Source: Actinomycetota bacterium (GTDB taxonomy: Bacteria > Actinomycetota > Acidimicrobiia > IMCC26256 > PALSA-610). Taken from it: 52,948 bases of DNA. The stretch is taken from positions 1-52,948 of the forward strand of contig SXHN01000058.1 of NCBI GenBank assembly GCA_005773635.1, written 5' to 3'. The position numbers and the translations under genes are program-made. The notes beneath the pieces were generated by a model that was not told the DNA's origin, searched no databases, and worked only from the letters and a program-made list of their open reading frames with translations. Positions 8,963 to 35,800 of this stretch are shown here, in pieces. Position 1 is the stretch's first letter; each line of letters opens with the position of its first letter.

Positions 8963-10132
8963 CTATGTAAACGACTCGCTCGCCACGCCGAAGTAGTTCT
9001 GATAGCTCTGAGCACGATCACGCCATTCATCGCGATCCAAGCCCGTCGCCTCCCAGGTGTAGTGATGTCGACCGTGCTCATCCTGTCCGTGCGCTGCAAG
9101 AAATTTTCGCATTCGATCTTCGGCGGAGGTAGTGAACGACAACCCGAGTTGATCGTAAATCGCTGCGATGGCCACGAAAGGATCGTTCATGAATTGATCG
9201 AAATTCACATCAACAACTCGCTTGGGGTCGACCACGCCCGATCGTCGGGCATTCACCGATCGGTCGAATCCTTCCATCGTCCATTCCGCCCAATCGCCAG
9301 CAATATCGGCAATATCTGTGGTATCGCTTCCTAGCTTGCGTAGAACTGCTTGCAACGACGAAACCGACGCGATTACCCGCAACGGATCGCGATGAGTTTG
9401 GACGAGTATTGCTTCGGGATACTCCGCGAGCAACGCTTCAAGACACCAAATGTGGCCGGGAGTTTTGAGCAACCATCGTTCGCCATAATGCCGAGCTTGC
9501 AGGTGTTGCAGAAACATGCGGTGCCACCGGTACGCCGGGGCCATGTCCGCTTCGTACAAGAGCCACCTGCCGTACGACGGCATCCGATACACCGTAGGAA
9601 ACATCACGCTTCGAAACGCCGAAGCTGTGATCGTCACACATTCCTGGCCTAAACGAGCGCCCATCGGGTGAATCGCACGAAAGCCCGGAATGATCATGTC
9701 GGTCGCAGCGCTCGATGCCTCGACGATGTCAATGCGGGGATCGGTCTCGTAGGTCGCGGTCTCGGGCGGTGGCGACGGCATGTCAACCTCCCAAGTGCGA
9801 GGCACACGCACTGCGGGGTCCTGAGCCAAAAGATCGAAGAGAATCGTGGTTCCAGTCCGCGCTTGTCCGACTATGACAATCGGCGGCGTAATGTCTCGAG
9901 TTGCGATCTCGGGGTGCGTCTTTCGATACTCAACGATATTGAGGCGGTTGGCGAGGAACTGAACAGTCGTGGATTCGACCATGACCCGTCCGATATCGTT
10001 GAGATTGCTTTCGTGATGCCACGCCTCAATCATTCGATCGAGCGCCTCACGCCATTCCATTGTTTCGAAATCGTCATAGCCCGTTGCGGCGATGGCTTGC
10101 TCGATAAGGTGCTCGGCGACGATTGGTTCCAC
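8963..10132 (-). CDS. sulfotransferase-family protein
   Basis: The chosen GTG gives 389 residues. It follows GAGGA in the correct position and lies 25 bases after the stop of the preceding gene; a longer reading frame would overlap that gene by over 100 bases. The PAPS-binding 5' loop GQARTGTT lies at about residues 90-97 and the 3'-phosphate segment THRDPLRVIAS near 265. These proteins move a sulfo group from PAPS to a hydroxyl or amine, often on lipids, sterols or small metabolites. It is the last gene of a five-gene minus-strand operon that contains a second family member of similar architecture at 11315-12562. The acceptor is unknown. Confidence 0.85.
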   Translation of the reverse strand: MEPIVAEHLIEQAIAATGYDDFETMEWREALDRMIEAWHHESNLNDIGRVMVESTTVQFLANRLNIVEYRKTHPEIATRDITPPIVIVGQARTGTTILFDLLAQDPAVRVPRTWEVDMPSPPPETATYETDPRIDIVEASSAATDMIIPGFRAIHPMGARLGQECVTITASAFRSVMFPTVYRMPSYGRWLLYEADMAPAYRWHRMFLQHLQARHYGERWLLKTPGHIWCLEALLAEYPEAILVQTHRDPLRVIASVSSLQAVLRKLGSDTTDIADIAGDWAEWTMEGFDRSVNARRSGVVDPKRVVDVNFDQFMNDPFVAIAAIYDQLGLSFTTSAEDRMRKFLAAHGQDEHGRHHYTWEATGLDRDEWRDRAQSYQNYFGVASESFT

Positions 10133-10157: not shown

Positions 10158-11318
10158 CTAACGGGTGACGACAGATTTACGACGACGACGCAGGACAGCT
10201 TCGCGTTCGGATGTGGTGGTCGAGGGATGACTCTTTGGTACAACAGTACGAAGTTGGTCAAGTCGCACTACAACCGATTCCGGTACTGGCTTCGTGCGAG
10301 TGCCGACGTAGCGATACACCAACAGCCCTTCTGGCAGACTTCCAACGTCGATCCAGTTAGGCACTCCAGGGTCGGTCGCACTCACGACGATCCGCACCAA
10401 CCCGTCGTCATCGACGAATACCTGGCGGTGGTTCAGGCTCGTTTGGCGATTCGCGAAGTCGCCCGAATCAAGCCAGAACCGAGTGTGAAGAGTCCATGAC
10501 CAATAGTCGGCGTCTGGCACTTCGCTGGTGATCACCAGCGCCAGCCCATCTTGTAGCGACCACCAACCGGCTCCGTACGCAATGTTCGCAGCACCTCCGG
10601 GTGGAGTGGTGGGCGCACCGAATGTATTCGCTTGCATCGCGGAGCGCGCGCCGTCGACGTAGTTACGCCAAAACGTCAATGATTGCTCTACCCAATGCAT
10701 GGCGGCATCGAGTTGTTGAGCCATGGTAACGCCGGAATCCTGAGCCGCACCTTGTTGCCCGGCTTCGTCGAGACGCTCGATAAACAATTTCGCAGGCACT
10801 TCATTGTCCCAGTCACTCAAGTATTGACGAATCAGCAACATCGTGGCGGTCGGATGCATCGGAATCCAATTACTTGGTTGCTCTTGCGGCGAAATCACAA
10901 CCTCCAGCAACCTGTCGGGCCCGATCTCAAACTCGTTCAGTGTCTTTTCATTGAACACTCCGAAATGCCCTAGGTGCATATCGCCATCAACAACCGAAAC
11001 AATGGCGTTGTCGATGGTTGCCACATCACCGGACAGCCGATAGGTCCCAAGTGGATCGATCGCGCAGCGCTGGTACACGTTGTCCGGGTTCGGCCCGCCC
11101 CACTGCAGCCAGGGTTGTTCGTAGGTATGCAATGTCGGGCGGCGCGGATCGCCAAATTCAAGGTTCGACTGCAGCGCCATCACTACTTGGCGTGTCACAT
11201 GTCGAACGCCGTGCGCTTGGGCAGCGTCGTCACCCGGAAAACCAGGTCCGTCGAGCACATCGGCCAACAAACTCAACCGGCGCGAGAAGTCGCGGAGTCC
11301 TTCGACGGCGCTCGTCAC
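10158..11318 (-). CDS. DUF1214-domain protein
   Basis: The 386-residue soluble protein contains the beta-rich DUF1214 fold in its second half (PDADYWSWTLHTRFW, then a SLNHRQVFVDDDG strand and PGVPNWIDVGSLPEG). The N-terminal half is helical. Its biochemical role is not established. Genes of this kind recur beside sulfotransferases in actinobacteria, as here. Translation starts at a GTG that overlaps the stop of the upstream sulfotransferase (GTGA), preceded by a strong GGAGGTGAT ribosome site, so the pair is coupled. The C-terminus is very basic (LRRRRKS). Confidence 0.75.
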   Translation of the reverse strand: MTSAVEGLRDFSRRLSLLADVLDGPGFPGDDAAQAHGVRHVTRQVVMALQSNLEFGDPRRPTLHTYEQPWLQWGGPNPDNVYQRCAIDPLGTYRLSGDVATIDNAIVSVVDGDMHLGHFGVFNEKTLNEFEIGPDRLLEVVISPQEQPSNWIPMHPTATMLLIRQYLSDWDNEVPAKLFIERLDEAGQQGAAQDSGVTMAQQLDAAMHWVEQSLTFWRNYVDGARSAMQANTFGAPTTPPGGAANIAYGAGWWSLQDGLALVITSEVPDADYWSWTLHTRFWLDSGDFANRQTSLNHRQVFVDDDGLVRIVVSATDPGVPNWIDVGSLPEGLLVYRYVGTRTKPVPESVVVRLDQLRTVVPKSHPSTTTSEREAVLRRRRKSVVTR

Positions 11319-12562
11319 TGGATCACCTCCAAAGGTAAGTCGAACTGCTGCATGTAGCGGCTAAAGCGGTGTCGCGTTTCGTCGTAATCAAGGCCAGTTT
11401 CAGCGAATGAATAGTCATGCGACGGCTGCGAGGAACGCGTGGCATTGCGCTGCGCCACATAGCGCTTCATCGCCGTCAGGGCACCTGGCGTGAGTTCGCG
11501 ATCAAGATCTCGATAGACAGTGCGCACCGCACTGATCGGATCCGCGACAAGATCGCAATACCGAACGTCGTGGACTTGGCTCGCGGGCAATGTGCCATCA
11601 TTTCGCCAACGGTCAACCAATTCGAACACGAGTGCGGTTCCCGTCGCCACCGTTGTAACAATGCGTTGGTAATCCACATCGTCGGTCTTTTGCCACTGCA
11701 ACGTCGCCATGAGATCCGTGATCGAGCCGAGAACGCGCAGAGGATCCCGGTGAGTCACAATCACGTGGGCATCCGGGTACACCGCAAAAAAGGCAATGAG
11801 TTGCGATAAATGCGACGGGGCTTTCAAGAGCCAGTTCACACGCTCATCCGAACCCTGGAGATACTGCAAAAACTTCTTGTGAAACCTGAAGCTTTCCTTC
11901 CGGTCCGCTCGCGCAAGCCAACCGCCGTACGAGGGCGTCGGGAATGTACCCATCCAGTGATCTGACACGAACGTCGGCTTCGTCATGAAAATACATTCGT
12001 TGGGATGGTCTCCCCCGTTTTCGTGCATCGACTGATACTCAGGCGTAACAACGTTCCAAAAGGTGGCATCTCGATGCGCGTCCTGCAACGCCAGTGGGCC
12101 GCGAGCCTGATCGTGCACCGACTCCGGGTATTGCATTTCCCACGTCAACGGCGCACGCATGTGCGGATCGCAATTCAGCAATTCAAGCAGCAGCGAGGTA
12201 CCAGATCTGCCAGTCCCGGTTACGAGCGTCGGCGCCGACACCGAGCGAGACTCGATTGCGGGATCACGTTGCCATGTATCGATGAGATACAGGCGGTTGA
12301 TCAAGGTTCGCACCAACTCGGAACGCGCCAGCAACTTCCCTGTTGTATGCAGATTTCCTTCGTCGTTCAAACTCGATAGAAATACGCGAAACGGAACCAG
12401 CCAGTCGTCGCCACCGAAGTCTTGGAGTTCAGCCGTCGAAATTGCCGACTCCAGCAGTGACGCCTCGTCGAGCGCCACCAGCAAGGATTGGTCACCGCTA
12501 TTGCGGCCCATCGCATTCAGCTCTTCAACCCACAATGGCCGAGGCCGAGGTTGCCACGTCAC
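11315..12562 (-). CDS. sulfotransferase-family protein
   Basis: The 415-residue protein has the 5' PAPS loop GTGRSGTS at about residues 116-123 and the 3'-phosphate segment THRDPLRVLGS in the second half. It resembles the downstream sulfotransferase (HKKFLQYLQ and LLKAPSHL match RMFLQHLQ and LLKTPGHI), so the two are paralogues. I chose the GTG at 12562 because it overlaps the previous stop as GTGA, like other joints in this operon. An ATG 13 codons upstream would overlap by 43 bases. Possibly the two enzymes act on related acceptors. Confidence 0.85.
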   Translation of the reverse strand: MTWQPRPRPLWVEELNAMGRNSGDQSLLVALDEASLLESAISTAELQDFGGDDWLVPFRVFLSSLNDEGNLHTTGKLLARSELVRTLINRLYLIDTWQRDPAIESRSVSAPTLVTGTGRSGTSLLLELLNCDPHMRAPLTWEMQYPESVHDQARGPLALQDAHRDATFWNVVTPEYQSMHENGGDHPNECIFMTKPTFVSDHWMGTFPTPSYGGWLARADRKESFRFHKKFLQYLQGSDERVNWLLKAPSHLSQLIAFFAVYPDAHVIVTHRDPLRVLGSITDLMATLQWQKTDDVDYQRIVTTVATGTALVFELVDRWRNDGTLPASQVHDVRYCDLVADPISAVRTVYRDLDRELTPGALTAMKRYVAQRNATRSSQPSHDYSFAETGLDYDETRHRFSRYMQQFDLPLEVIQ

Positions 12563-17114: not shown

Positions 17115-20100
17115 ATGCGCTTCGATGTGACGATGAGAAACGCTGCTGGCGATCTCAACGTGTTGGTGGACTGCGACCCATCGTCCCCAGTGCTCAATCT
17201 TGTCGAGCGGCTCGTTGGCGAGGCGCTCGCGCACGTACTCATCGACGGTAAGCAAAGGTCACTCGACCACGCGACAGTTGATGAGATCCTGCACCATGGG
17301 TCGATCATCTCGATCGCACCCGCGACGATGCGCCACGAAACCGGCTCCCGCCCCGACGAACTCGACGTGGTCGAAGTGGTCGTGACCCAAGGCGTTCAGT
17401 GTGGGGCCACAGCGATGCTCGGCGTCCAGGATTCCATGGTGATCGGGAGCGCGCCAGATTGCGATTTCGTTGTGTCCAACAGCCATATCGCGCCTCAGCA
17501 TCTACGATTGGCAACCTTCAACGGTGCACTCGTCGCCGTCCATCTCGCACCTGGTTTCTCAAGTTCGATCAACAACACGCCGCTACAAAGTGGATCACCA
17601 GTAATGGTCGAAATGGGCGACCAGATCCAAGTAGGACCAAGCGCGATCACCGTGCAATCGGGCAAAAACGCTTGCGACCCCCACTGCACCCTTGCGCCGA
17701 CCCGTAACGGGCGGTTGGTGTTCAATCGGCCGCCGCACCTGCGACCGATTGCGCGCAGCGTAACGGTAACGATGCCGCAAACACCCCCTAATGAAGAACG
17801 ATCAGAGTTTCCGTGGATGCAATGCTTGTTGCCGCTGGTGCTGGCTCTCGTTGCAGCGTGGCTCTTCGGCCGACCGGAAATGCTGTTGTTTGCATTGATG
17901 AGCCCGGTGCTGACACTGACCAACGCCGTGGGTACCCGCCGGCTCGCACGACGGAGAGGGCGAATGGCTCGAACGACCTACGACGGGCAGGTGATCGCCG
18001 CGCACGCTCGCATTGATGAGATTGCGCGGCATGAGGTCGCGACCCAGGCCCTTTTCCACCCGCGCTTCGATGAACTTTTGGATTGGGCGGCGCAACGATC
18101 AGAGCGCCTTTGGGAACGACGCATCACTGACGACGACGCACTCGCGGTGCGGGTCGGAATCCATGACCGCCGTTCGCACATCGTGGTCGAGCCCGCAGCA
18201 CAGAGAGACTCTGCGCAGATTCCCTGGCTACATGGTGTAGCAGCGACGCTCGATCTTCGGGCCTGTGGGGTTGTCGGCGTTTGTGGGCCAGCCAAGGTGG
18301 CCACGGCTCATGTGAGTGCGCTCCTTGGCTCGCTCGCGGCGTTGCTGCCTCCCAGCGAACTTCGGTACGTGCTGTTGTCTGACGCCGAACAATCCGAGTG
18401 TTGGAGTTGGTTGCAATGGCTCCCACACGTGTCGAACGACTCCGCGCAGACACCGTTCAATATCGGCAACACAGACGCAGCAATCAGCGCTCGACTTGAC
18501 GAGCTAGATGAAATCATCGCGGCGCGCTCAGCGATCGCCAACGGAGCGGATCGTGTACCGGCGTTGATCGTGGTCCTTGATCATTGTGCCGCTCGGAGTA
18601 ACGACAGACGCATGCGGGCCATCTTCGAGCGCGGACCAGCCGTGGGCGTGCATCTGATTTCCATTGAAGATGCGGCATGCGACTTACCGCAGGAAGCGTT
18701 GGCGATACTGCGACACCTCGATACGAAAGGGTCATTCAGCCTCGAGATCGATGCCCAGGCGCACGACGACACTGTTATTCCCGATCTTGCAAGCGCGCAA
18801 TGGTGTGAACGTATCGCTCGGGCACTCGCTCGAATCACCCACCAACCAGAAGATCACGCAACGGTGCTACCGGACGCGACTGCGCTTGTCGAACTCCTGA
18901 AGATCGACTTCACCTCACCAACTGAGGTCGCGAACCATTGGAGTCAAACGTCTCCTTCAACCGTTGCGGCCGTCGGCGTAGGCTTCGACGGCGCGTTCAC
19001 GATCGACTTGCAACGCGACGGTCCACACGCGTTGGTTGCGGGAACTACGGGCTCAGGAAAGAGCGAATTTCTCCAGACGCTCATCGCAAGTTTGGCTGCA
19101 ACCAACCCACCCGACATGCTGAATTTCGTCCTTGTCGACTTCAAAGGAGGCTCGGCGTTCTCGCTATGTGCGCGGCTTCCCCACACTGTCGGCATGGTGA
19201 CCAATCTGGATCAGCAACTCACTCAACGAGCGCTCGCAAGCCTCGACGCAGAACTTAAGCGTCGCGAGGCCGCACTCGCCACGCTGGCCGTACCGGATGT
19301 TGATCGTGCGTGGCTATCTCATCCCGAGCAAGCCGCGCGCGAAGGCTTAGCTCGCCTTGTGATCGTGATCGACGAATTCGCGGAGTTAGCGATGGAACTT
19401 CCGGCGTTTGTTTCCGGCCTGGTGCGCATCGCCCGCGTCGGGCGATCGCTCGGTATCCATCTCGTGCTCGCAACCCAGCGTCCAGCCGGCGTGATTACTC
19501 CAGAAATTCGTGCGAATACAAGTTTACGAATCGCGCTGCGCGTCGAAGATTCTCAAGACTCCCAGGAAGTGATCGGTTGCGACAACGCGGCGTCCATCGA
19601 TCGCACCAAACCCGGACGAGCCTTCGCAAAGCTTGGCGGCGCGCGCACCATTGTCGAGTTTCAAAGCGGACGAGTGGCTGGGTCGACTGCGCCCAGAAGT
19701 CCCAGCGATGAGATCTTCCTCAAAGCCCGCGAATGGAACACGATTGCGGCACCGGTCGCTTTCGGCATCCAAGTTGGGACACCCGGGCCCGCGATTGCCG
19801 ACATCGAGGTGTTAGTCGACACGTTGACTGCTGCCTCAGTGATGACGAATCGACTCGCAACCCATCGACCCTGGCTCGAACCCTTGAGGGCCCGCTACGT
19901 CAGCGACGACGCAACAATCGCGATCATCGACCTCCCACCGCAGCAGGCGCAATGGCCGGTTGTGTTTTCACTTGATGATCCTGAGCACTGGCTCATCGCG
20001 GGCGCAAGCCGCAGCGGACGCACAACAGCGTTGCGAGCAGTCTGCGCGGCGATCGCTCGAACTGTTGGGCCCGACGACTGCCACCTCTATGTATTCGACG

Positions 20101-21437
20101 CTGGCGGTGGAGCGTTGCACCCCGTTTGTGATCTCGCTCACTGCGGCACCTCAGTGCGCTGCGGCACCGATGATCCGCTGCGGATCGAACGCCTCGCACA
20201 GCGCCTCGCCGAGGAGGTGCGGAAGCGACTGACAACGTTGGCGAACGAGGGATACGGCACGATCGCGGAGCAAAGAACCGCAGCGGCGCCAACCGATCGA
20301 ATGCCCTTCATCAGCGTATGCATAGACCGCTGGGACACACTGGCCGCACAATTCCCTGCACACGGCGGATCCGAGCTGATCGACAATCTGCACCGAGTCG
20401 CACGCGACGGCGCGTCGGTAGGAATCCGCATGTTCCTAACCGGTGACCGGTCGATTCTGGGCGACCGCATCACAAGTTGCATGTCACGACGTTTCGTACT
20501 GCGACTGAATGATGCAAACGACTACCGCATGGCAGACATCAATCCGCGCTTGGTTCCGGCGGAGATTCTGCCGGGCCGCGCCATCGAAGCTGGCTCACAC
20601 GCAGAGGTGCAATTCGCGCTGCTCGACGAACAGGCCACGACTACGGCACAGCTCCAACAGCTTTGTCAGGTTGCCCGACGCAGCCACGACACAGCCAATG
20701 GGCTCAAACCATTTCGCGTCGACGCGCTTCCCGAGTTCATTGAGTTCAAGGGGTTGTCAATCGCACTCCAAGATCACAGTTACCGTGACGGGCTCACCAT
20801 CGGAGTCACAGGCGACGAACTTGCAACCGTCCGGTTTGATCTCGATGACATGGCAGGAATCATCATCGCAGGCCCTCGAAGCTCGGGGCGATCAAACGCG
20901 ATCCTGGTGTTCGCGCAAGCCGCCAGCTCCGCCGGCCTCGCGACAGTGATCATCGCTCCGAAGCTGGCACGCGGCACACGCTGCAATAACGAGCGGACCA
21001 CGGTTGTAACTGGCGACACCGCTTCCGATCTTGACAACGTGCGCAGCGCGATCCTCGCTGATCGTTGTCTCGTGCTCATCGATGACGCCGCCGAGATCGC
21101 GCGCAGCCCACTCGACGATTGGCTACTAGAGCAGGTGTCGTCTCACAGTAGCCACATCGCCGGAATTGCCGTTGCTGGTGCTGTCGAATACATCCGCAAC
21201 GAAACGCGCGGTGTCGTGGGTTGGTCAAAACGAGCGCAGTGCGGCCTGCTCCTGAGCCCCGCATCGACCCTGGACGGCGATCTCCTCGGTACGCGCCTCG
21301 ACCGTTCGCATCTCGGCGGTATCGCGGGCCGAGGGATCTACAAGAACACAAGCGGTGTACACATCGTCCAGATGTTCCACAGTACGCTCCGCTACGCGGC
21401 TCCGCTGCGTGATTTCTCGCACAATGCCGCGTCGTGA
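17115..21437 (+). CDS. FHA-like / FtsK-SpoIIIE type VII secretion ATPase (EccC/EssC-like)
   Basis: The chosen ATG (AAGGA 8 bases upstream) gives 1440 residues. In order: a ubiquitin-like or FHA-like N-terminal domain (1-75), an FHA-like domain (about 95-175) without the usual phosphothreonine-binding Arg, two membrane helices (about 233-275), a region with a degenerate loop and a WSWLQWLPH motif as in EssC (about 385-450), then three FtsK domains. The first has a complete Walker A, GTTGSGKS at 643-650, and Walker B, LVIVIDE near 750. The second (GASRSGRTT near 963) and third (GPRSSGRSN near 1253) have Arg in place of the Walker Lys, so probably only the first hydrolyses ATP. The N-terminal FHA build resembles Firmicutes EssC and some actinobacterial FHA-FtsK proteins more than mycobacterial EccC. 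Confidence 0.9.
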   Translation: MRFDVTMRNAAGDLNVLVDCDPSSPVLNLVERLVGEALAHVLIDGKQRSLDHATVDEILHHGSIISIAPATMRHETGSRPDELDVVEVVVTQGVQCGATAMLGVQDSMVIGSAPDCDFVVSNSHIAPQHLRLATFNGALVAVHLAPGFSSSINNTPLQSGSPVMVEMGDQIQVGPSAITVQSGKNACDPHCTLAPTRNGRLVFNRPPHLRPIARSVTVTMPQTPPNEERSEFPWMQCLLPLVLALVAAWLFGRPEMLLFALMSPVLTLTNAVGTRRLARRRGRMARTTYDGQVIAAHARIDEIARHEVATQALFHPRFDELLDWAAQRSERLWERRITDDDALAVRVGIHDRRSHIVVEPAAQRDSAQIPWLHGVAATLDLRACGVVGVCGPAKVATAHVSALLGSLAALLPPSELRYVLLSDAEQSECWSWLQWLPHVSNDSAQTPFNIGNTDAAISARLDELDEIIAARSAIANGADRVPALIVVLDHCAARSNDRRMRAIFERGPAVGVHLISIEDAACDLPQEALAILRHLDTKGSFSLEIDAQAHDDTVIPDLASAQWCERIARALARITHQPEDHATVLPDATALVELLKIDFTSPTEVANHWSQTSPSTVAAVGVGFDGAFTIDLQRDGPHALVAGTTGSGKSEFLQTLIASLAATNPPDMLNFVLVDFKGGSAFSLCARLPHTVGMVTNLDQQLTQRALASLDAELKRREAALATLAVPDVDRAWLSHPEQAAREGLARLVIVIDEFAELAMELPAFVSGLVRIARVGRSLGIHLVLATQRPAGVITPEIRANTSLRIALRVEDSQDSQEVIGCDNAASIDRTKPGRAFAKLGGARTIVEFQSGRVAGSTAPRSPSDEIFLKAREWNTIAAPVAFGIQVGTPGPAIADIEVLVDTLTAASVMTNRLATHRPWLEPLRARYVSDDATIAIIDLPPQQAQWPVVFSLDDPEHWLIAGASRSGRTTALRAVCAAIARTVGPDDCHLYVFDAGGGALHPVCDLAHCGTSVRCGTDDPLRIERLAQRLAEEVRKRLTTLANEGYGTIAEQRTAAAPTDRMPFISVCIDRWDTLAAQFPAHGGSELIDNLHRVARDGASVGIRMFLTGDRSILGDRITSCMSRRFVLRLNDANDYRMADINPRLVPAEILPGRAIEAGSHAEVQFALLDEQATTTAQLQQLCQVARRSHDTANGLKPFRVDALPEFIEFKGLSIALQDHSYRDGLTIGVTGDELATVRFDLDDMAGIIIAGPRSSGRSNAILVFAQAASSAGLATVIIAPKLARGTRCNNERTTVVTGDTASDLDNVRSAILADRCLVLIDDAAEIARSPLDDWLLEQVSSHSSHIAGIAVAGAVEYIRNETRGVVGWSKRAQCGLLLSPASTLDGDLLGTRLDRSHLGGIAGRGIYKNTSGVHIVQMFHSTLRYAAPLRDFSHNAAS

Positions 21438-21894: not shown

Positions 21895-21900
21895 TAGCAT
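21895..21900 (+). promoter_or_regulatory. -10 box TAGCAT for the HMGCS/DUF35 operon
   Basis: TAGCAT ends 7 bases before the ATG at 21908, with no ribosome site between. This predicts a leaderless transcript for the four-gene operon that follows. Confidence 0.5.
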
Positions 21901-21907
21901 CGACGCG

Positions 21908-23317
21908 ATGGCTGTCTATATCCATTCAGTGGGAGTAGGAGTACCCTCCCGTCGACTAGCAGTCGCGGACATCAACTCCGCATGGAATCGCACGGGCGGT
22001 CGCGGCACCGTGGCCGTCTGCGCCGACGACGAAGACGCACTCACCTTGGCCTGGTCAGCAGCTAATTCGGCGATGCAAGCTGCGGAAATCGAACCGGGAA
22101 GTGTCGACGGACTCTGGTGGGGCGTGACCCGCGCTCCGTTTGCCGAAGGTCCATCACACTCAATCTTGGCGGCATCCCTGAGCCTGCGGCCCACTGCCGC
22201 AGGTGCGCTGACCAGCGGGTCGACACATTGCGGCATCGATGCGCTCTTCGCCGCAGCCGACGCCGTCGCAGCCGGCACAGCCAGAATCGCTGTGGTTGTC
22301 GTCTCCGATGCGCTCCGTGCTGGTTTGGGGACTGCGTCCGAAACTCGGTGCGGCGCGGCGGCTGCCGCGTTCATATTGCGCAGCGACGAAGGCCCCGCCG
22401 CGCTCGGTGCGCGAACAACGCATAGCCAACCGTTGCTCGACCGGTATCGCGGCGACACCGAAAACGACACGAGAGACCTCTACGACGGACGGCTCTTTCG
22501 CGAGGAGATCTTTGTACCCATCGTCAGCGAAGTCGCTGGCAGGTTGGCGACGTCGAAACCAACGGCATGGTCGCTCCCCGACCCCGACGGTCGTTTGGCT
22601 GCAGCGGTGGCCAAGAACGCGAGTGTTCCGCCCGACTCCATCACCTCGTCGAACGTCTTCGCCACGCTCGGGGACACCGGCGCCGCCGCGTGCCTCTTGG
22701 GGTCGGTGGGCGCATTCACGCGGGTAGGCAACGTCGCCGTCGTTGCCTACGGCGGAGGCCGAGCAAGCGGCATAACTATCGACGTCAACCGTGCAATACC
22801 TGGCGCGGAAACTGCAGCCCGCGACTTACAGAGCGACAACGCCTCGTCAAGCTATGCAGATGTTTTGCGCTTCCGTCGCCAGCTCACCCCGACCGGCGAG
22901 ACAATCGCGATGGGAGTACCTCCAGAGGCTGCACTGTTCACGCGTGGCGCGAATGAAATGCTCCAGCTCCTAGGAGGCCGATGTGACGATTGCGGAACCA
23001 TCAACACGCCGCCGTCAATCCACCCGCATTGCATCGCCTGTGGTGGACCGAAGATGGAACCGGTCGAGTTAGCTCGGACCGGAATCGTGCATACGTTCGT
23101 CATCAATTACACGATGCCAGCGCCGTTCGTAGCGCCGCTTCCGATCGCAGTGATTGATCTCGACGACGGCTCACGCGTCATGTTGCAAGTTGCCGATGAC
23201 GGAAGCAACGTTGAAATCGGCGCTCGCATGCAGCTCCTACTACGACGCTACGCATACGAACGCGGCGCTCCCGTCTACGGCTTTAAGGCCGTGCCGGTCC
23301 GAAAGGAATCCTTGTGA
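21908..23317 (+). CDS. HMG-CoA-synthase-like enzyme fused to a DUF35 zinc-ribbon/OB domain
   Basis: The 469-residue protein is a fusion. Residues 1-340 have the thiolase fold of the HMG-CoA synthase/KAS III group, with a candidate nucleophile Cys108 in GSTHCGIDAL. Residues 340-469 are a DUF35 domain: a zinc ribbon with Cys359, Cys362 and a second CxxC near 375-378, then an OB fold (ELARTGIVHTFVINY). In archaea a separate DUF35 protein bridges thiolase and HMG-CoA synthase. Here the bridge is fused to the synthase and the thiolase gene follows with a 4-base overlap. By my alignment the usual catalytic His position is not His and the Asn of GN is Asp (LGDTG), so classic HMG-CoA synthesis is doubtful. 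No other mevalonate gene is present. Confidence 0.8.
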   Translation: MAVYIHSVGVGVPSRRLAVADINSAWNRTGGRGTVAVCADDEDALTLAWSAANSAMQAAEIEPGSVDGLWWGVTRAPFAEGPSHSILAASLSLRPTAAGALTSGSTHCGIDALFAAADAVAAGTARIAVVVVSDALRAGLGTASETRCGAAAAAFILRSDEGPAALGARTTHSQPLLDRYRGDTENDTRDLYDGRLFREEIFVPIVSEVAGRLATSKPTAWSLPDPDGRLAAAVAKNASVPPDSITSSNVFATLGDTGAAACLLGSVGAFTRVGNVAVVAYGGGRASGITIDVNRAIPGAETAARDLQSDNASSSYADVLRFRRQLTPTGETIAMGVPPEAALFTRGANEMLQLLGGRCDDCGTINTPPSIHPHCIACGGPKMEPVELARTGIVHTFVINYTMPAPFVAPLPIAVIDLDDGSRVMLQVADDGSNVEIGARMQLLLRRYAYERGAPVYGFKAVPVRKESL

Positions 23318-24489
23318 GCTGGAACAAAGTTGCCGTCGTCGGCGCCGGTCTCATCAAGATGGGCGAGCTCTTCGATCAAAGTTACGAAACGATGGCAGCC
23401 GGCGCATTCGCGGCGTGTGTCGAATCGGTTGACAAGGGCTTCGACCCTTCGCAAGTAGAGGCAGCATTTGTAGCAACCCAACGCGGAACGCTGTGGGGCC
23501 AAGAAGGAATTGGGGGCAACACCATTCCTACCGCGATTGGGCTGGTCGGCATTGCGTGCACCCGCATTGAAAACGCGTGTCCGTCTGGCTCCGACGCATT
23601 TCGAGTCGGCGCGATGGCGGTCGCCAGCGGCGTCCACGACGTGGTGCTGGTGATCGGCGTCGAGAAGATGCGCGATAAATCCACCGAAGAAGGGCTTCTA
23701 TCTCGAGCCGCGGCAGGCCACCCAATTTTCACGCGCGGAGAAACTGCCCCAGTTCTGTTCGCCCCGTTCGCAACCCGCCACATGGCCGAGTTCGGCACCA
23801 CCCGCGAAATGTTGGCCAGCGTCGCGGTGAAGAACCATTTCAACGGCGCCCGCGATCCGTACGCGCACTTCCAGAACGAGATCACCATCGAGCAAGTGCT
23901 CGCATCGGCACCCGTGTGTCATCCGTTGCACCTCCTCGACTGCTGTCCGCAAACCGATGGAGCCGCGGCCGTACTGCTGGTCAACGCCGATCGGGCTCAT
24001 GAATTCACCGACAAGCCAGTGTTTGTTGCCGGTTTCGGCCTTGCGACGGACCATCCCTACCTTCATGAAAAAGCAAGTTTCACCGAAATTAAGGCTACGG
24101 GTATGGCCGCTGAACGCGCCTACGCGATGGCGGGCATCTCACCGACCGATATCGATTGTGCCGAAGTCCATGACTGCTTCACTATCACCGAGATTCTCGA
24201 TATTGAAGACCTTGGGTTCTTCGCCAAAGGTGACGGCGGTCGGGCATCACTCGAAGGCGACACTGCGCTGGCGGGGCGAATTCCTGTAAACACGAGTGGC
24301 GGGTTGCTCGCGAAAGGCCACCCGATTGGCGCGACCGGAGTCGCACAAATCACCGAATGCTGGTGGCAACTACGAGGTCAAGCCGATAAACGCCAAGTTG
24401 AGATCCGCAACGGGTATGCGCTGCAACACAACGCCGGTGGGCGCGGCAGCGGCGTTGCAGTCGTGAACATCCTGACGAATCGAAGGTAG
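23314..24489 (+). CDS. SCP-x-type thiolase
   Basis: The 391-residue protein is an SCP2/SCP-x-type thiolase. It has the nucleophile Cys89 in ENACPSGSDA, HDCF near residue 286 and GHPIGATG near 336, which supplies the second-half catalytic His. The bulky Pro after the nucleophile Cys is unusual, since most thiolases have Ala or Gly there. This branch includes thiolases and retro-aldolases that work with DUF35 partners, for example in steroid side-chain removal. The GTG start overlaps the stop of the HMGCS/DUF35 gene (GTGA), which implies a 1:1 complex. It probably makes or breaks a carbon-carbon bond next to a CoA thioester. Confidence 0.88.
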   Translation: MSWNKVAVVGAGLIKMGELFDQSYETMAAGAFAACVESVDKGFDPSQVEAAFVATQRGTLWGQEGIGGNTIPTAIGLVGIACTRIENACPSGSDAFRVGAMAVASGVHDVVLVIGVEKMRDKSTEEGLLSRAAAGHPIFTRGETAPVLFAPFATRHMAEFGTTREMLASVAVKNHFNGARDPYAHFQNEITIEQVLASAPVCHPLHLLDCCPQTDGAAAVLLVNADRAHEFTDKPVFVAGFGLATDHPYLHEKASFTEIKATGMAAERAYAMAGISPTDIDCAEVHDCFTITEILDIEDLGFFAKGDGGRASLEGDTALAGRIPVNTSGGLLAKGHPIGATGVAQITECWWQLRGQADKRQVEIRNGYALQHNAGGRGSGVAVVNILTNRR

Positions 24490-24493
24490 CGAT

Positions 24494-25297
24494 ATGGACG
24501 ACGAACTCCAAGTCACCATCTCAACCAATGGGGTCATGCACATTCAGCTCAGTCGGCCCGATGCCAAGAATGCGCTCACCATCGCCATGCGCGACGGCAT
24601 TGTCGAAGCACTCACAACCGCGCGCAGCAACTCTGAGGTGCGTGCGATATTGATTTCCGGCGTGGGCGACGCATTCTGTGCCGGCATGGACCTCTCTGCT
24701 TCAACGGTCATGCAAGCCGGCCGTGACGATTTTCGGCCTCGAATGACCAGCGAAGCGCTTCGCGTCGGAGTCCAATCCTTCATCAAATCATTGTGGGAAC
24801 TCGACAAACCAACAGTCGCAGCAGTTCACGGAGCGGCGGTTGGCCCCGGCGCACATTTGGCGTTGGCCTGCGATTTTGTAATCGTCCAGCCCCGCACAAA
24901 GTTTGTGTGGACGTTTCCTAAGTGGGGTCTGGTAGTCGATGCGGGCGGAGCGTATCTACTGCCGCGTCTCGTCGGTCTCGCCAAGGCCAAAGCACTTGTG
25001 ATGTTGGGAGAGTCGATCAACGGCGAAGACGCAGTCAACCTTGGATTGGCGTACGAATGTGTATCCATCGATGCCGTCGCAGCCACGGCACAGCAGCTTG
25101 CATCCCGGCTCGCAGCAGGCCCAACAAGGTCACTCGGTCTTTCGAAGCGTCTACTCAATGCCAGCTTCGAGACGAACCTCAACGCATCGTTGGAACTCGA
25201 AGGTCACTTTCAGGCACTTGCGACTACGAGTCCGGATCTCCTTGAAGGTATGGCCGCGTTTCGCGAGAAGCGCGACGCAACGTTCAGCGGGGACTGA
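24494..25297 (+). CDS. crotonase-family enoyl-CoA hydratase/isomerase (PaaG-like active site)
   Basis: The 267-residue protein has the crotonase fold with the CoA/oxyanion segments CAGMDL (62-67) and HGAAVGPGAH (112-121). The two catalytic Glu of ordinary hydratases are absent (FPKWG replaces the PE motif). Asp149 in GLVVDAGG matches the single catalytic Asp of PaaG-type isomerases. It is therefore more likely an isomerase shifting a double bond or opening an oxepin-like ring than a hydratase. An AAGG ribosome site precedes the ATG and the gene starts 4 bases after the thiolase. Confidence 0.85.
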   Translation: MDDELQVTISTNGVMHIQLSRPDAKNALTIAMRDGIVEALTTARSNSEVRAILISGVGDAFCAGMDLSASTVMQAGRDDFRPRMTSEALRVGVQSFIKSLWELDKPTVAAVHGAAVGPGAHLALACDFVIVQPRTKFVWTFPKWGLVVDAGGAYLLPRLVGLAKAKALVMLGESINGEDAVNLGLAYECVSIDAVAATAQQLASRLAAGPTRSLGLSKRLLNASFETNLNASLELEGHFQALATTSPDLLEGMAAFREKRDATFSGD

Positions 25298-25300
25298 CCA

Positions 25301-25747
25301 ATGTTTCGCGATCAGGATGGTCGAGTCCAACGAGTCGCGGCCTATGCCGTGTGCGACAACCCACGTCGCGAGCTATTGCTCTGCCGACTCAACGACAGCA
25401 CTTTGAACCCTGGAGCATGGACGTTGCCCGGCGGCGGAATCGAATTTGGCGAGCATCCCGATGTAGCGGTAGTGCGCGAATGTGAAGAGGAAACCGGGCT
25501 CGTCGTTGCAGTGCGAGAGTTGCTGACGATCGATTCGTTACAACGATCCATGCACAGCATCGGCGGAGATGCAGTGGTGCCGTATCACGCGGTACGGATC
25601 TTGTACCGGGTTGAAGTCGTGGGCGGCGAGCTCCGCCATGAGATGGACAACTCCACGGACATGGCGGCGTGGCACAGTGCCGAATCCATGGGAGCTATTC
25701 GTCGCACCGACGTCGCAGACCTTGGGCGGTCCTTCACCACCATCTGA
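25301..25747 (+). CDS. NUDIX hydrolase
   Basis: The 148-residue protein holds a complete Nudix box from Gly45 to Leu67 (G-x5-E-x7-RE-C-x-EE-x-GL). Such enzymes cleave nucleoside diphosphates linked to another group, including CoA and NAD derivatives. It follows the crotonase by 3 bases and closes this operon, so a CoA or acyl-CoA pyrophosphatase role is a reasonable guess, although the CoA-specific NuCoA motif is not visible. Confidence 0.9.
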   Translation: MFRDQDGRVQRVAAYAVCDNPRRELLLCRLNDSTLNPGAWTLPGGGIEFGEHPDVAVVRECEEETGLVVAVRELLTIDSLQRSMHSIGGDAVVPYHAVRILYRVEVVGGELRHEMDNSTDMAAWHSAESMGAIRRTDVADLGRSFTTI

Positions 25748-25912: not shown

Positions 25913-26320
25913 ATGGGTTTGTTCAAGCAAATGAAGGACATGAAAAACGTCGTCGCAGCTGCGCCAGAAATGATCAGCAACGCGCAGGCCCTTGCCGGCC
26001 AGGCACAACAGCTCCAACAAGCACAAATGGCAGCCATGCAAACCGGTTCGATGCCAGGCATGGCGGGAATGGGAACCCCAGTCGATCCAGCTCAGCTGAC
26101 ACCGATTTCCGGAGTGAGCATTGAACTCTACGCACAACTGTCCAAAACCATCGGCGAACAGCGACTCGACGCCGACGGTATTACAAGGCTGCTAACGACG
26201 CAGGGGCTTACTTACGGCCAGTGGGACGAGGCGTACACGGTTTGGAATGAGCGATTCAAAGCCAACATGGCGTTGTCGGCTCATTTCGCAATGTTGTTCC
26301 AGCAAACGACCGCGCTCTAA
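25913..26320 (+). CDS. uncharacterised small protein, first of a related pair
   Basis: The 135-residue protein begins MGLFKQMKDMKN, continues with a helical, Gln/Met/Ala-rich linker (AQQLQQAQMAAMQ, GSMPGMAGMG), and ends in a helical domain (GVSIELYAQLSKTIGEQ and YGQWDEAYTVWNERF). An AGGGAG ribosome site sits 6 bases before the ATG. It resembles the next gene in its first 30 residues (MG-aromatic/Leu-FK opening, then amphipathic helix). No membrane segment is present; the amphipathic start could bind membranes. Function unknown. Expression is probably controlled by the palindrome upstream. Confidence 0.7.
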   Translation: MGLFKQMKDMKNVVAAAPEMISNAQALAGQAQQLQQAQMAAMQTGSMPGMAGMGTPVDPAQLTPISGVSIELYAQLSKTIGEQRLDADGITRLLTTQGLTYGQWDEAYTVWNERFKANMALSAHFAMLFQQTTAL

Positions 26321-26346: not shown

Positions 26347-26748
26347 ATGGGTTTTTTCAAAGACCTCAACAAATTGAATAAGCAAGCCAAACAGATCTCA
26401 CAAGACTGGGACCCTGCAGCGCAGATGCGCCAAGGCATGGCGTCGATGCAACAGGCGTCGGACATGATGGCACAGCAAACAGTTGCGGCATCGCTGGCGG
26501 GGAGCGGCACTGCCGAACGCGCCAGTGCACAGATCACCGCCACGCGCGACACCGGAATGCTTATGAACCTCCAACCAGTGCTGGAGATCAACTTGCTGGT
26601 ATTTCGGGAAGGATTACCTCCCTACCCAGTGACGTTGCGCCAGTCCGTTGCTATGGCGGCTCTCGCGCGTATCACACCGGGTGCCACAGTTTCGGTTGAC
26701 CTCGATCCAGTAAACCCAGAGACTGTGGTCCTCAACACGTTGTTGTAA
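26347..26748 (+). CDS. uncharacterised small protein, second of a related pair
   Basis: The 133-residue protein opens MGFFKDLNKLNKQAKQ, a likely amphipathic helix, followed by a Met/Gln-rich linker (MASMQQASDMMAQQ) like its upstream neighbour. The C-terminal 60 residues form a beta-type domain (LEINLLVFREGLPPYPVTLRQ, then a VSVDLDPVNPETVVLN end). That end resembles small barrel domains found in actinobacterial SHOCT-type or OB-like proteins, but I cannot assign a family. It lies 26 bases after its neighbour with no strong ribosome site, so translation may depend on the upstream gene. Confidence 0.65.
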   Translation: MGFFKDLNKLNKQAKQISQDWDPAAQMRQGMASMQQASDMMAQQTVAASLAGSGTAERASAQITATRDTGMLMNLQPVLEINLLVFREGLPPYPVTLRQSVAMAALARITPGATVSVDLDPVNPETVVLNTLL

Positions 26749-26763
26749 CTCACAACAAGATCT

Positions 26764-26836
26764 GGTGCCGGGCGGCACTCGCGGATTTGACCATTGCCCC
26801 GGTCAGGTGCGACGACCGCGATCAACGCCCGGCACC
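26764..26836 (+). ncRNA. strongly folded leader RNA candidate upstream of an SDR gene
   Basis: Three nested perfect stems can be drawn: 26764-26774 with 26826-26836 (11 bp), 26779-26784 with 26816-26821 (6 bp), and 26788-26792 with 26801-26805 (5 bp, 8-base loop). The whole occupies 73 bases of the 156-base gap before the SDR. The outer left arm with two more bases (26762-26774) recurs exactly at 26939-26951, inside the SDR's glycine-rich-loop codons. The right arm could therefore pair with either copy; the second pairing would place the ribosome site and ATG in a loop. No T-run follows. A cis-regulatory leader is the favoured reading; a plain transcription-end structure is the alternative. 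Confidence 0.5.
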
Positions 26837-26904: not shown

Positions 26905-27825
26905 ATGGGTCGATTCGAAGGCAAAGTTGCGATTGTTACTGGTGCCGGGCGCGGTATTGGTCGCGCCCATTCGCTGCTGCTCGCCTCTGAAGGCGCGTGC
27001 GTGGTTGTCAACGACTTCGGCGGCGGCATGGCTGGAGAGGGCAACGACGCCACGCCGGCACAGCAGGTGGTCAACGAGATCACCACGGCGGGCGGGACTG
27101 CAGTGGCCAATTTTGCGTCGGTATCGAATTGGGCCGAAGCAGAGGCGATGATCGCTCAGGCTGTCACCACATTTGGCAGGCTCGACATCCTTGTAAACAA
27201 CGCGGGGATATTGCGCGACCGCATGAGTTTCTCGATGACCGAGCAGGAGTTCGACTCCGTCATCGACGTTCATCTCAAAGGCCACTTTGCACCTTCGCGC
27301 TTCGCAGCCGCGTATTGGCGTGAACAGTTCAAAGCCACCAACGCGCCGGTCAACGCCAAGATCGTCAATACCGCCTCAGAATCAGGCCTGTACGGCAACG
27401 GCGGCCAGGCGAATTACGCCGCAGCTAAGGCTGGCATTGCATCAATGACCATCGTGATGGCCCGCGAACTTGAACGCCTGGGTGTTCGGGTCAACGCGAT
27501 CGCGCCGGTCGCGCGCACTCGCCTCACCGAGGCCACGCCCGGGGCTGGCGAATACATGGCGAAAAAGGACGGGCTACCAGATCAGTTTGCCCCAGAAAAT
27601 GTCGCCGCGGTCATGGGTTGGCTCGCGTCGGATCTGTCAGCCGGCGTTACAGGCCAGGTGTTTAAGGTGATGGGTGGCATGGTGCAATTGCTAAAGGGCT
27701 GGCGACCAATCACGCAGTCCAGCGATGAAATGGAATGGTCGATTGACTCGATCGACTCGGCTTCGGCCACACTCTTCGATGGTCAACCGCGCGGCGTTCC
27801 ACCGTTCATGCCCGACATTGAGTAG
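26905..27825 (+). CDS. short-chain dehydrogenase, 3-hydroxyacyl-CoA dehydrogenase type
   Basis: The 306-residue protein begins at the ATG that follows GAGGAG by 4 bases; a longer frame would include the folded leader. The Rossmann loop GAGRGIG is at residues 13-19, NNAG near 96, and Ser plus YAAAK near 150-177. The long form with an aspartate-terminated cofactor strand (VVVNDFGG) and a C-terminal extension resembles the dehydrogenase unit of peroxisomal multifunctional enzyme 2/17-beta-HSD type 4. It should oxidise (3R)-hydroxyacyl-CoA or a steroid alcohol with NAD. The context of thiolase, crotonase and P450 genes supports lipid or steroid breakdown. Confidence 0.88.
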   Translation: MGRFEGKVAIVTGAGRGIGRAHSLLLASEGACVVVNDFGGGMAGEGNDATPAQQVVNEITTAGGTAVANFASVSNWAEAEAMIAQAVTTFGRLDILVNNAGILRDRMSFSMTEQEFDSVIDVHLKGHFAPSRFAAAYWREQFKATNAPVNAKIVNTASESGLYGNGGQANYAAAKAGIASMTIVMARELERLGVRVNAIAPVARTRLTEATPGAGEYMAKKDGLPDQFAPENVAAVMGWLASDLSAGVTGQVFKVMGGMVQLLKGWRPITQSSDEMEWSIDSIDSASATLFDGQPRGVPPFMPDIE

Positions 27826-33399: not shown

Positions 33400-33405
33400 T
33401 AGCGT
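33400..33405 (+). promoter_or_regulatory. -10 box TAGCGT for fbiC
   Basis: TAGCGT is followed by 7 bases and a GTG at 33413. There is no ribosome site and no ATG in the frame between the ABC-F gene and the first conserved residues. This decides the start of fbiC. Confidence 0.5.
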
Positions 33406-33412
33406 GCGCGGC

Positions 33413-35800
33413 GTGCTGCACGCATCCGACTTTGCCGAACTCGTGAATACCCCGACCGCGCAGGTTTTGGAGCGAGCCGGTGCGATTCGAACGGCCACGT
33501 TTGGGCATCGCGTCACGTTTTCTCCGAAGGTGTTCATACCCCTCACGATGTTGTGCCGAGACCGGTGTGGTTACTGCACATTTGCGAAACCGCCCGCGCG
33601 CCTCGACAGCCCGTATCTGAGCCCCGACGAAGTTCTCGCGATTGCCCGGCGGGGTGCGGCGATGGGCTGCCACGAAGCACTATTTACCCTTGGAGAGGCA
33701 CCCGAGGATCGCTATCCGCAAGCGGCTGAATGGCTCGCCGCGCACGGCTACGCCGACACAGTCGAATACCTGGTCGCGATGGCCAAGCTGGTTGTCGAAG
33801 AAACCGGGTTACTCCCCCACGCGAACCCTGGAGCATTGTCCGAAGATCAACTCCGAGCGCTACGGCGTTGGTCGCCGAGCCAAGGCATGATGATCGAAAC
33901 CCTCGCCGACCGACTGCACGACGTCGGAGGCGCCCATCACGGCGCGCCCGACAAGACTGCGGCCCGGCGCCTCGCCACACTCGAAGCGGCCGGGCGCGCG
34001 CGCGTGCCGTACACAACCGGGATTCTCTGTGGCATCGGCGAGACTCGACAGGAGCGCATCGAGGCACTCGTCGCGATCGCTAACAGTCATCAAGTGCACG
34101 GCCATATCCAAGAGGTCATCGTGCAGAATTTCCTGCCCAAAGCCGGAACCTCGATGCACAAGGCCGAACCCTGCAGCCACGACGATTTCCTCTGGTCGAT
34201 CGCGGTTGCGCGTATCATTTTGCCTACCGCGATTCATCTCCAGGCTCCGCCCAATTTGAGCGACCCCGATCAGCTCGCCGATTTGCTGCACGCAGGTATA
34301 GATGATTGGGGCGGCGTTTCACCGGTCACTATCGACCACGTGAATCCCGAACGACCCTGGCCCGCGCTCGAAGCCCTGCGCGATGCGACAGAAGATTGCG
34401 GACATGTGCTCGCGCCGAGGCTCACCATCTACCCCGAGTTCGTGCGCGACCCCCAACAATGGATCGAGCCCGATCTGCAATTTTCCGTCCTGTTGCGCAG
34501 CGACATGGAAGGGCTAGCTCGCGACGACCATTGGTCGTCAGGAGGCGAACAAGAGCCCTCCACCATTTTGCCGTTCGACCGAAAAGCCTCTCCCACCGAG
34601 ACTGTCGCAAACGTGCTGGCAAGAGTTGCGCAGGGCGATGAAATCGACGCGGCCGGCATCGTCACGCTGCTCAGCGCCCACGGTAGCGATGTGGCGGCTG
34701 TCTGCGAATTCGCGGATCAACTCCGTCGCGATGTTGTCGGCGACGAAGTGACGTTCGTGCGCAACCGCAACATCAACTACACCAACGTCTGCACGTTCAA
34801 ATGCAAGTTCTGCGCGTTTAGTAAAGGCCCGCTCTCGTTGAACTTGCGCGGAAAGCCGTACTTGCTCGAGCTTGAAGAGGTACAGCGCCGAGTCGTCGAA
34901 GCGGTCGAATGTGGCGCTACCGAAGTGTGTCTCCAAGGTGGAATTCATCCAAGTTTCGACGGCGACTTCTACGTGCACGTCGCGGAGTCGATCAAGGCTG
35001 TGACCCCCAACATTCATATTCATGGCTTCACTGCGCTTGAAGTCACTGAAGGCGCTCGGCGCCTCGACATGCCATTACCCCAATATCTCGAGCGCCTGAA
35101 AGCAGCGGGCCTTGCGACGCTGCCCGGTACCGCAGCTGAGATTCTCGACGATGATGTGCGGGCCGTACTTTGCCCCGACAAGATCAATACACAGCAATGG
35201 CTCGATGCCCACGAAGCCGCGCATTCGGTAGGTCTCCGTAGCAATGTGACAATCATGTTCGGGTCGATCGAACGCCCGGAACACGTTGCCAACCACCTCG
35301 TGCGCACTCGCGAGCTGCAGAAACGAACGGGTGGCTTTACCGAATTTGTTCCCTTGCCTTTCGTGCATATGGCTACTCCGATTTTCTTACAGCACATCGC
35401 TCGCCCTGGGCCGACGTTCCGCGAGGTACTGCTGATCCATGCCGTGGGCCGCATCGCGTACCACGGTTGGATTCACAACGTTCAGGCTTCCTGGGTCAAG
35501 GCGGGAGTCCACGGTGCCCAACAAATTCTGCAGGCGGGCGCCAACGACCTCGGCGGCACACTGATGGACGAAAACATCTCCCGCGCGGCGGGCGCAAACC
35601 ACGGACAAGAGCTTGACGACACCGAGTTCAGTGCCATCGTGGAGCCGATTGGGCGCAGGCTCGTGCAACGCACCACCCTGTACGGCCGCACCCAGACGGT
35701 GGGCAAACGACTGCGCCCAATCGACGACGACGGGCTAATCGCCCGTGACGAGGTACACACCGTGTCCTTGATCGCGAAACCTCAAACCCTTCCCGTCTAG
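33413..35800 (+). CDS. fbiC: FO synthase, fused CofG-CofH (7,8-didemethyl-8-hydroxy-5-deazariboflavin synthase)
   Basis: The 795-residue protein joins two radical-SAM enzymes. The CofG half has the cluster motif Cys48-x3-Cys52-x2-Cys55 (CRDRCGYC). The CofH half has Cys460-x3-Cys464-x2-Cys467 (CTFKCKFC). Together they make the deazaflavin FO from tyrosine and a ribitylaminouracil precursor, the first committed step to coenzyme F420. The fused form is typical of actinobacteria. The start at GTG 33413 is inferred from the -10 box 7 bases before it; it is somewhat shorter at the N-terminus than mycobacterial FbiC but keeps all conserved parts. The PfkB kinase gene follows by 28 bases and may be cotranscribed. 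Confidence 0.95.
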   Translation: MLHASDFAELVNTPTAQVLERAGAIRTATFGHRVTFSPKVFIPLTMLCRDRCGYCTFAKPPARLDSPYLSPDEVLAIARRGAAMGCHEALFTLGEAPEDRYPQAAEWLAAHGYADTVEYLVAMAKLVVEETGLLPHANPGALSEDQLRALRRWSPSQGMMIETLADRLHDVGGAHHGAPDKTAARRLATLEAAGRARVPYTTGILCGIGETRQERIEALVAIANSHQVHGHIQEVIVQNFLPKAGTSMHKAEPCSHDDFLWSIAVARIILPTAIHLQAPPNLSDPDQLADLLHAGIDDWGGVSPVTIDHVNPERPWPALEALRDATEDCGHVLAPRLTIYPEFVRDPQQWIEPDLQFSVLLRSDMEGLARDDHWSSGGEQEPSTILPFDRKASPTETVANVLARVAQGDEIDAAGIVTLLSAHGSDVAAVCEFADQLRRDVVGDEVTFVRNRNINYTNVCTFKCKFCAFSKGPLSLNLRGKPYLLELEEVQRRVVEAVECGATEVCLQGGIHPSFDGDFYVHVAESIKAVTPNIHIHGFTALEVTEGARRLDMPLPQYLERLKAAGLATLPGTAAEILDDDVRAVLCPDKINTQQWLDAHEAAHSVGLRSNVTIMFGSIERPEHVANHLVRTRELQKRTGGFTEFVPLPFVHMATPIFLQHIARPGPTFREVLLIHAVGRIAYHGWIHNVQASWVKAGVHGAQQILQAGANDLGGTLMDENISRAAGANHGQELDDTEFSAIVEPIGRRLVQRTTLYGRTQTVGKRLRPIDDDGLIARDEVHTVSLIAKPQTLPV

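Follow-up and report, generated by a model that had tools for sequence, protein, structure and literature searches.

A fused HMG-CoA-synthase-like/DUF35 protein that has lost the synthase catalytic residues, a putative partner of an SCP2-type thiolase in an actinobacterial genome

What is made by a bacterial locus where an HMG-CoA-synthase-like domain is joined to DUF35 in one chain, directly against a thiolase gene? The question is raised by contig SXHN01000058.1 of the Actinomycetota assembly GCA_005773635.1, from which a stretch of 52,948 nucleotides (the window) was analyzed. A sequence-only reading had described the locus as such a fusion with an overlapping thiolase gene, related to the archaeal complex of thiolase, DUF35 and HMG-CoA synthase, and had proposed a channelled enzyme with two active sites whose Claisen or retro-Claisen step has a CoA ester different from acetoacetyl-CoA as substrate. 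The gene arrangement is indeed as described: a single forward-strand open reading frame for 469 residues (positions 21908..23317) encodes both domains, and the start codon of the 391-residue thiolase gene (23314..24489, same strand) lies inside the fusion stop in a 4-bp GTGA overlap (23314..23317, forward strand). The individual parts and the type of complex are already known. For the fusion itself no characterised case was found in the open-access literature; a 2010 DUF35 paper mentions in general terms DUF35 fusions to members of the thiolase superfamily, and database entries name the fused family “zinc ribbon”, “OB-fold” or “ACP synthase” proteins. So far undescribed, it seems, is a dead HMG-CoA synthase that is fused covalently to DUF35 and in this form is found widely as the partner of thiolases in catabolism.

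The domains were assigned from Pfam, profile and PDB matches. The synthase-like domain covers approximately residues 1-300 of the fusion (21908..22807, forward strand) and matches NF003274 (E 2e-30, residues 2-324) as well as the archaeal HMG-CoA synthase chain 6esq_I (E 2e-8), while scoring below the curated cut-offs for HMG-CoA synthase (106 of 244 bits for NF003274 and 57 of 353 bits for TIGR00748). The DUF35 part (22967..23236, forward strand) consists of a zinc ribbon with all four cysteines in place (Cys359, 362, 375 and 378; PF12172 at 354-384, 25.9 bits against a cut-off of 23.2) and an OB domain (PF01796 at 386-443, 37.1 bits against 27.1), the features by which DUF35 proteins are recognized, and it matches 6esq_E (E 3e-11). 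The best PDB match of the thiolase is 6esq_A, the acetoacetyl-CoA thiolase of the archaeal complex (E 5e-80), so the proposed relationship holds for all three modules, which are encoded together here. An AlphaFold2 monomer model of the fusion, made from a three-sequence alignment, had a pLDDT of 39. Among fusion orthologues the mean identity is 56% for the synthase-like domain, 84% for the zinc ribbon and 69% for the OB domain, and the segments YDGRLFREEIF and PDPDGRL are near-invariant; on these alignments the synthase-like domain is still constrained, though less conserved overall than DUF35. As a separate observation, 13 of 53 aligned fused proteins carry other residues (Asp, Ser, Ser, Gly) at all four zinc-ribbon Cys columns, and DUF35 therefore probably binds no zinc in those 13.

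It is clear from the alignment to 6esq_I that the catalytic residues of the synthase are gone, Glu82, Cys114, His238 and Asn270 of the archaeal enzyme being replaced by Thr74, Thr106, Pro224 and Asp256, respectively. The sequence-only reading had rightly noticed by eye the missing His and the Asp in the place of an expected GN, and a conserved active-site His and Asn were looked for by alignment and not observed; the loss of the Glu had escaped it. It had furthermore taken Cys108 for a retained catalytic residue, and here it was mistaken. In an ungapped alignment Cys114 of 6esq_I (FACKAGT) pairs with Thr106 (GSTHCGI; codon at 22223..22225, forward strand), and Cys108 (codon at 22229..22231, forward strand) lies two residues off register, opposite Ala116. 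The same register was obtained from two further alignments, one with fused homologues and PhlA and one with 61 fused proteins. At position 108 the close orthologues, which share about 60% identity, carry Ala or Ser, and just 2 of the 61 fused relatives, the protein of this contig and that of locus L051, have a Cys no more than two positions away from the nucleophile column. Cys108 was rejected as nucleophile because it is off register with respect to Cys114 and not conserved among the 61 fused homologues.

The 61 aligned proteins come from Actinomycetota, two proteobacteria and six haloarchaea, thus three clades, and none of them has the expected residue in the catalytic Glu, Cys or His column. 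That the method detects intact sites where they are present follows from the positive controls, since a putative true HMG-CoA synthase (L170) and two FabH-like proteins (L162 and L169) keep both Cys and His in the same test. Ascertainment bias from using a dead protein as query was checked by a search with an active archaeal HMG-CoA synthase sequence, and the best actinobacterial matches were again the fused proteins. The separate three-chain versions that were examined (L157/L168, which are one locus, and L163-L167) are also dead; the unfused actinobacterial HMG-CoA-synthase-like proteins of L163-L168 have Ala or Pro at the Cys and Ser or Gly at the His. As judged from these alignments the synthase-like domain is a pseudoenzyme with respect to HMG-CoA synthesis.

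These replacements bear directly on the idea that, as in the archaeal HMG-CoA complex, two active sites perform Claisen-type steps one after the other on a CoA that they share. The homology of all three parts to 6esq speaks for such an enzyme, and so does the retention of R16, the D41-E42-D43 motif, E145, R181 and G255 across the fused family, which shows that the synthase fold is under selection. On the other hand all four catalytic residues are replaced here, three of them in every homologue aligned, the one nearby cysteine is displaced and unconserved, and HMG-CoA reductase was not detected in the source genome, which is 95% complete. We consider this explanation extremely improbable, and the channelled two-site part of the earlier proposal is not upheld. 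In the archaeal complex the synthase is active, the chains are separate and the context is the mevalonate pathway, whereas here the synthase is dead and DUF35 is fused to it, and the two active sites for mevalonate synthesis that characterize the archaeal complex are not found. A mevalonate role was rejected because of the undetected reductase.

The thiolase site, in contrast to that of the synthase, is intact as far as can be judged from its residues. It comprises Cys89, His286-Asp-Cys288-Phe and Gly-His336-Pro, the nucleophile, HDCF and GHP motifs that define SCP2-type thiolases, and all full-length partner thiolases aligned keep them. With the synthase Glu, Cys, His and Asn gone, the thiolase site is thus the sole recognizable active site of the pair. 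A Pro (Pro90) directly follows the nucleophile, as had been pointed out before, and its conservation is restricted to the clade of this thiolase. The earlier label “SCP-x thiolase” stands as far as the SCP2-thiolase type is concerned and falls with respect to SCPx, since Pfam matched no SCP2 lipid-carrier domain in the 391 residues. Like the peroxisomal-type SCP2 thiolase that goes with MFE-2 (SCPx/17beta-HSD4), the present enzyme is of the HDCF type and is encoded near an MFE-2-like dehydrogenase (see below), but it has a fused pseudo-synthase/DUF35 partner and no detected SCP2 domain.

DUF35 docked on a thiolase-fold enzyme is also a feature of the retro-aldolases Ltp2-ChsH2 and Sal-Shy, which act on steroid side chains, and in Shy DUF35 is fused to a MaoC hydratase (PMC12329534). 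A retro-aldolase of this type, cleaving 3-hydroxyacyl-CoA steroids, could be imagined here, as the superfamily and the DUF35 partner are shared and steroid-degradation genes are present in the genome. However, Ltp2 and Sal carry YDHF and YDCY motifs and catalytic residues that differ from those of thiolases (PMC12329534); neither motif is present in our thiolase, which has HDCF, GHP and Cys89, and no aldolase in the literature covered has an HMG-CoA-synthase-like domain. This makes such an activity very improbable, and the aldolase role was rejected on the basis of the thiolase motifs. The benzoylsuccinyl-CoA thiolase BbsAB (7pxp) likewise combines a thiolase and a DUF35 subunit in catabolism, but is devoid of an HMG-CoA-synthase-like domain.

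The closest functional analogue is the monoacetylphloroglucinol acyltransferase PhlACB (5m3k and 5mg5), which likewise consists of an HMG-CoA-synthase-like subunit without Cys and Glu, a zinc-ribbon DUF35 subunit and one active thiolase-type subunit. PhlA lacks the synthase Cys and Glu and catalysis is carried out by residues of PhlC alone, while PhlA and PhlB are both required for the complex and all three subunits line its single cavity (PMC6392133). By sequence the present pair has the same composition of inactive synthase-like part, DUF35 and thiolase with an intact site, and would by this analogy amount to a fused PhlA-PhlB working with a PhlC-like thiolase. PhlACB is a heterododecamer of three separate chains, has phlD as a neighbouring gene and performs a Friedel-Crafts acylation of phloroglucinol in secondary metabolism, whereas DUF35 is fused here and the context is catabolic. 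Because condensation is also within the reach of this type of complex, a biosynthetic role as C-acyltransferase or ketosynthase, forming a C-C bond on a secondary-metabolite acceptor, has to be weighed. It appears improbable, because no polyketide synthase genes (including type III) or tailoring genes were found among the neighbours scanned, the neighbours are beta-oxidation-like in all three clades, and the thiolase is 83-91% identical across the order, unlike a secondary-metabolite gene.

The two genes are also consistently paired and have diverged together. Over 48 loci the distances between fusions and those between the partner thiolases correlate with r 0.95, a value reached in 0 of 2000 permutations and to which shared species history and selection of loci contribute. 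The sister species G004 (L171, G004:C86:54000-73000) has the block from the crotonase to the P450 gene and beyond in the same order at 63-84% identity, but has neither the fusion nor the thiolase in that place; the closest thiolase of this species (45%) is encoded elsewhere, at G004:C40:70748. Haloarchaea have the inverted order with the thiolase gene first, and in the six records read the genes overlap by 1-4 bp. Exact peptide patterns gave two relatives, and searches of whole genomes were used to find more. In this way the fusion was found in 12 of 14 genomes of the same family, the source genome counted, the other eleven being 59-64% identical over the full length, and a full-length fused homologue occurs in at least approximately 42 of 296 sampled actinobacterial genomes, a lower bound as few candidates were scored per genome. 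Fused homologues are also carried on haloarchaeal plasmids and on plasmids of Variovorax and Sphingomonas; one of the haloarchaea with the pair is Haloferax mediterranei (L130). The fusion is thus not unusual, and its full-length recurrence with an adjoining thiolase in three large clades makes it real far beyond chance. A second pair of fused pseudo-synthase/DUF35 and thiolase, 28% identical, is found in the same genome (L065:5977-8616, corresponding to G000:C21:12312-14900) between a wax-ester-synthase/DGAT gene and a GGDEF-EAL gene.

The neighbourhood of the pair is catabolic by its gene content. Downstream and on the same strand follow an operon member of the crotonase fold, PaaG/isomerase-like (24494..25297), a NUDIX gene that is present in some orthologous loci only (25301..25747), a conserved SDR of the (3R)-hydroxyacyl-CoA dehydrogenase/17beta-HSD4 (MFE-2) type (26908..27825, possibly beginning upstream at 26794) and a CYP124/CYP125-like cytochrome P450 (30104..31390). 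Throughout this family, wherever the contig is long enough, the genes for the crotonase, often the NUDIX protein, the MFE-2-like SDR and the CYP124-like P450 come after the pair. The P450 belongs to the conserved block in this one family only; other families of the order retain crotonase and SDR in most loci, and in one of them two acyl-CoA dehydrogenase genes follow the SDR. At locus L112, genes for two CoA ligases and a CoA-transferase-like protein, together with a DUF35/thiolase pair, lie next to the block. In proteobacteria and haloarchaea the fused gene lies beside genes for acyl-CoA dehydrogenase, 3-hydroxyacyl-CoA dehydrogenase, enoyl-CoA hydratase, PaaK or UbiD, and CoA ligase and ring-dioxygenase genes are also among the neighbours there. 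Elsewhere in the window we observed two small tandem genes without Pfam match (25913-26320 and 26347-26748) whose counterparts in the sister species are 66-71% identical, an FHA plus FtsK/SpoIIIE ATPase (17115-21437) that is similar to the type VII secretion protein EccC, lies before the pair on the upstream side and was not seen in homologous loci, a protein with two radical-SAM stretches and a CofH C-terminal region (33404-35800; FbiC-like, F420 biosynthesis), and two Sulfotransfer_3 genes (8963-10132 and 11315-12511) with a DUF1214-like gene between them.

The same genome encodes IpdA and IpdB, with E values of 1e-104 and 3e-75 to their best PDB match 6co6, which we take to be IpdAB, and one genome region has an IpdC/FabK-like protein, an acyl-CoA dehydrogenase and several lipid-transfer-type thiolases. 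IpdA, IpdB and IpdC are steroid C/D-ring enzymes (PMC5380842). IpdA is found in 28 of 30 members of the class that have this thiolase and in 19 of 118 that do not (p 2e-15, uncorrected for phylogeny). Inside the order the association is weaker (p 0.04), and IpdA also occurs without the pair, for instance in G004, so the steroid link is partly phylogenetic.

Collectively, we favour a catabolic thiolase holoenzyme with one active site, where the fused dead synthase serves as scaffold and possibly as part of the pocket, and where a steroid-derived or methyl-branched 3-oxoacyl-CoA is likely to be cleaved; we put the probability of this explanation at roughly two in three. The thiolase would carry out a Claisen-type reaction, most likely in the retro-Claisen direction, with Cys89, His336, His286 and Cys288 cleaving a 3-oxoacyl-CoA by thiolysis. 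By analogy with PhlACB and the archaeal complex, DUF35 is expected to hold the pseudo-synthase against the thiolase and to contribute to the CoA/acyl cavity, and pseudo-synthase and DUF35 together would hold the complex and probably provide part of the acyl/CoA pocket. Complex formation, this scaffold or pocket role, the direction of the reaction and the substrate are what we infer. The retro-Claisen option of the earlier suggestion, with a CoA ester that is not acetoacetyl-CoA, gains support from the neighbourhood, which resembles steroid or branched-lipid catabolism, and from the undetected HMG-CoA reductase.

The enzymes encoded nearby, the crotonase and the MFE-2-like dehydrogenase, joined in this family by the CYP124-like P450, could take part in producing the likely substrate, a steroid-derived or methyl-branched (isoprenoid-like) 3-oxoacyl-CoA. 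A sterol side-chain or methyl-branched acyl-CoA is our leading guess because of CYP124, the MFE-2-like SDR and IpdAB. The same thiolase with the same dead partner might instead act on a substrate unrelated to steroids and branched lipids, such as an alicyclic or aromatic-derived acyl-CoA, which differs from the favoured explanation in the substrate only. Related pairs do adjoin ring-hydroxylating dioxygenase, PaaK, UbiD and benzoate-CoA ligase genes; in this family, however, the conserved neighbours are the CYP124-like P450 and the MFE-2-like SDR, and the thiolase co-occurs with IpdA. We consider such an alternative substrate rather unlikely.

More broadly, and only tentatively, the fused proteins and their thiolases may form a large catabolic cousin of the archaeal HMG-CoA complex, spread across domains, where the synthase died, was fused to DUF35 and became a pocket subunit, and where bulky (steroid, branched or cyclic) acyl-CoAs reach the one thiolase site through the old synthase cavity. 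If the favoured explanation is true, a family found in actinobacteria, proteobacteria and haloarchaea would receive a name and a role that can be tested. The explanation would then also provide an example of a catalytic subunit retained as a dead binding partner, and add a thiolase type for the breakdown of steroids or branched lipids in a poorly studied actinobacterial class.
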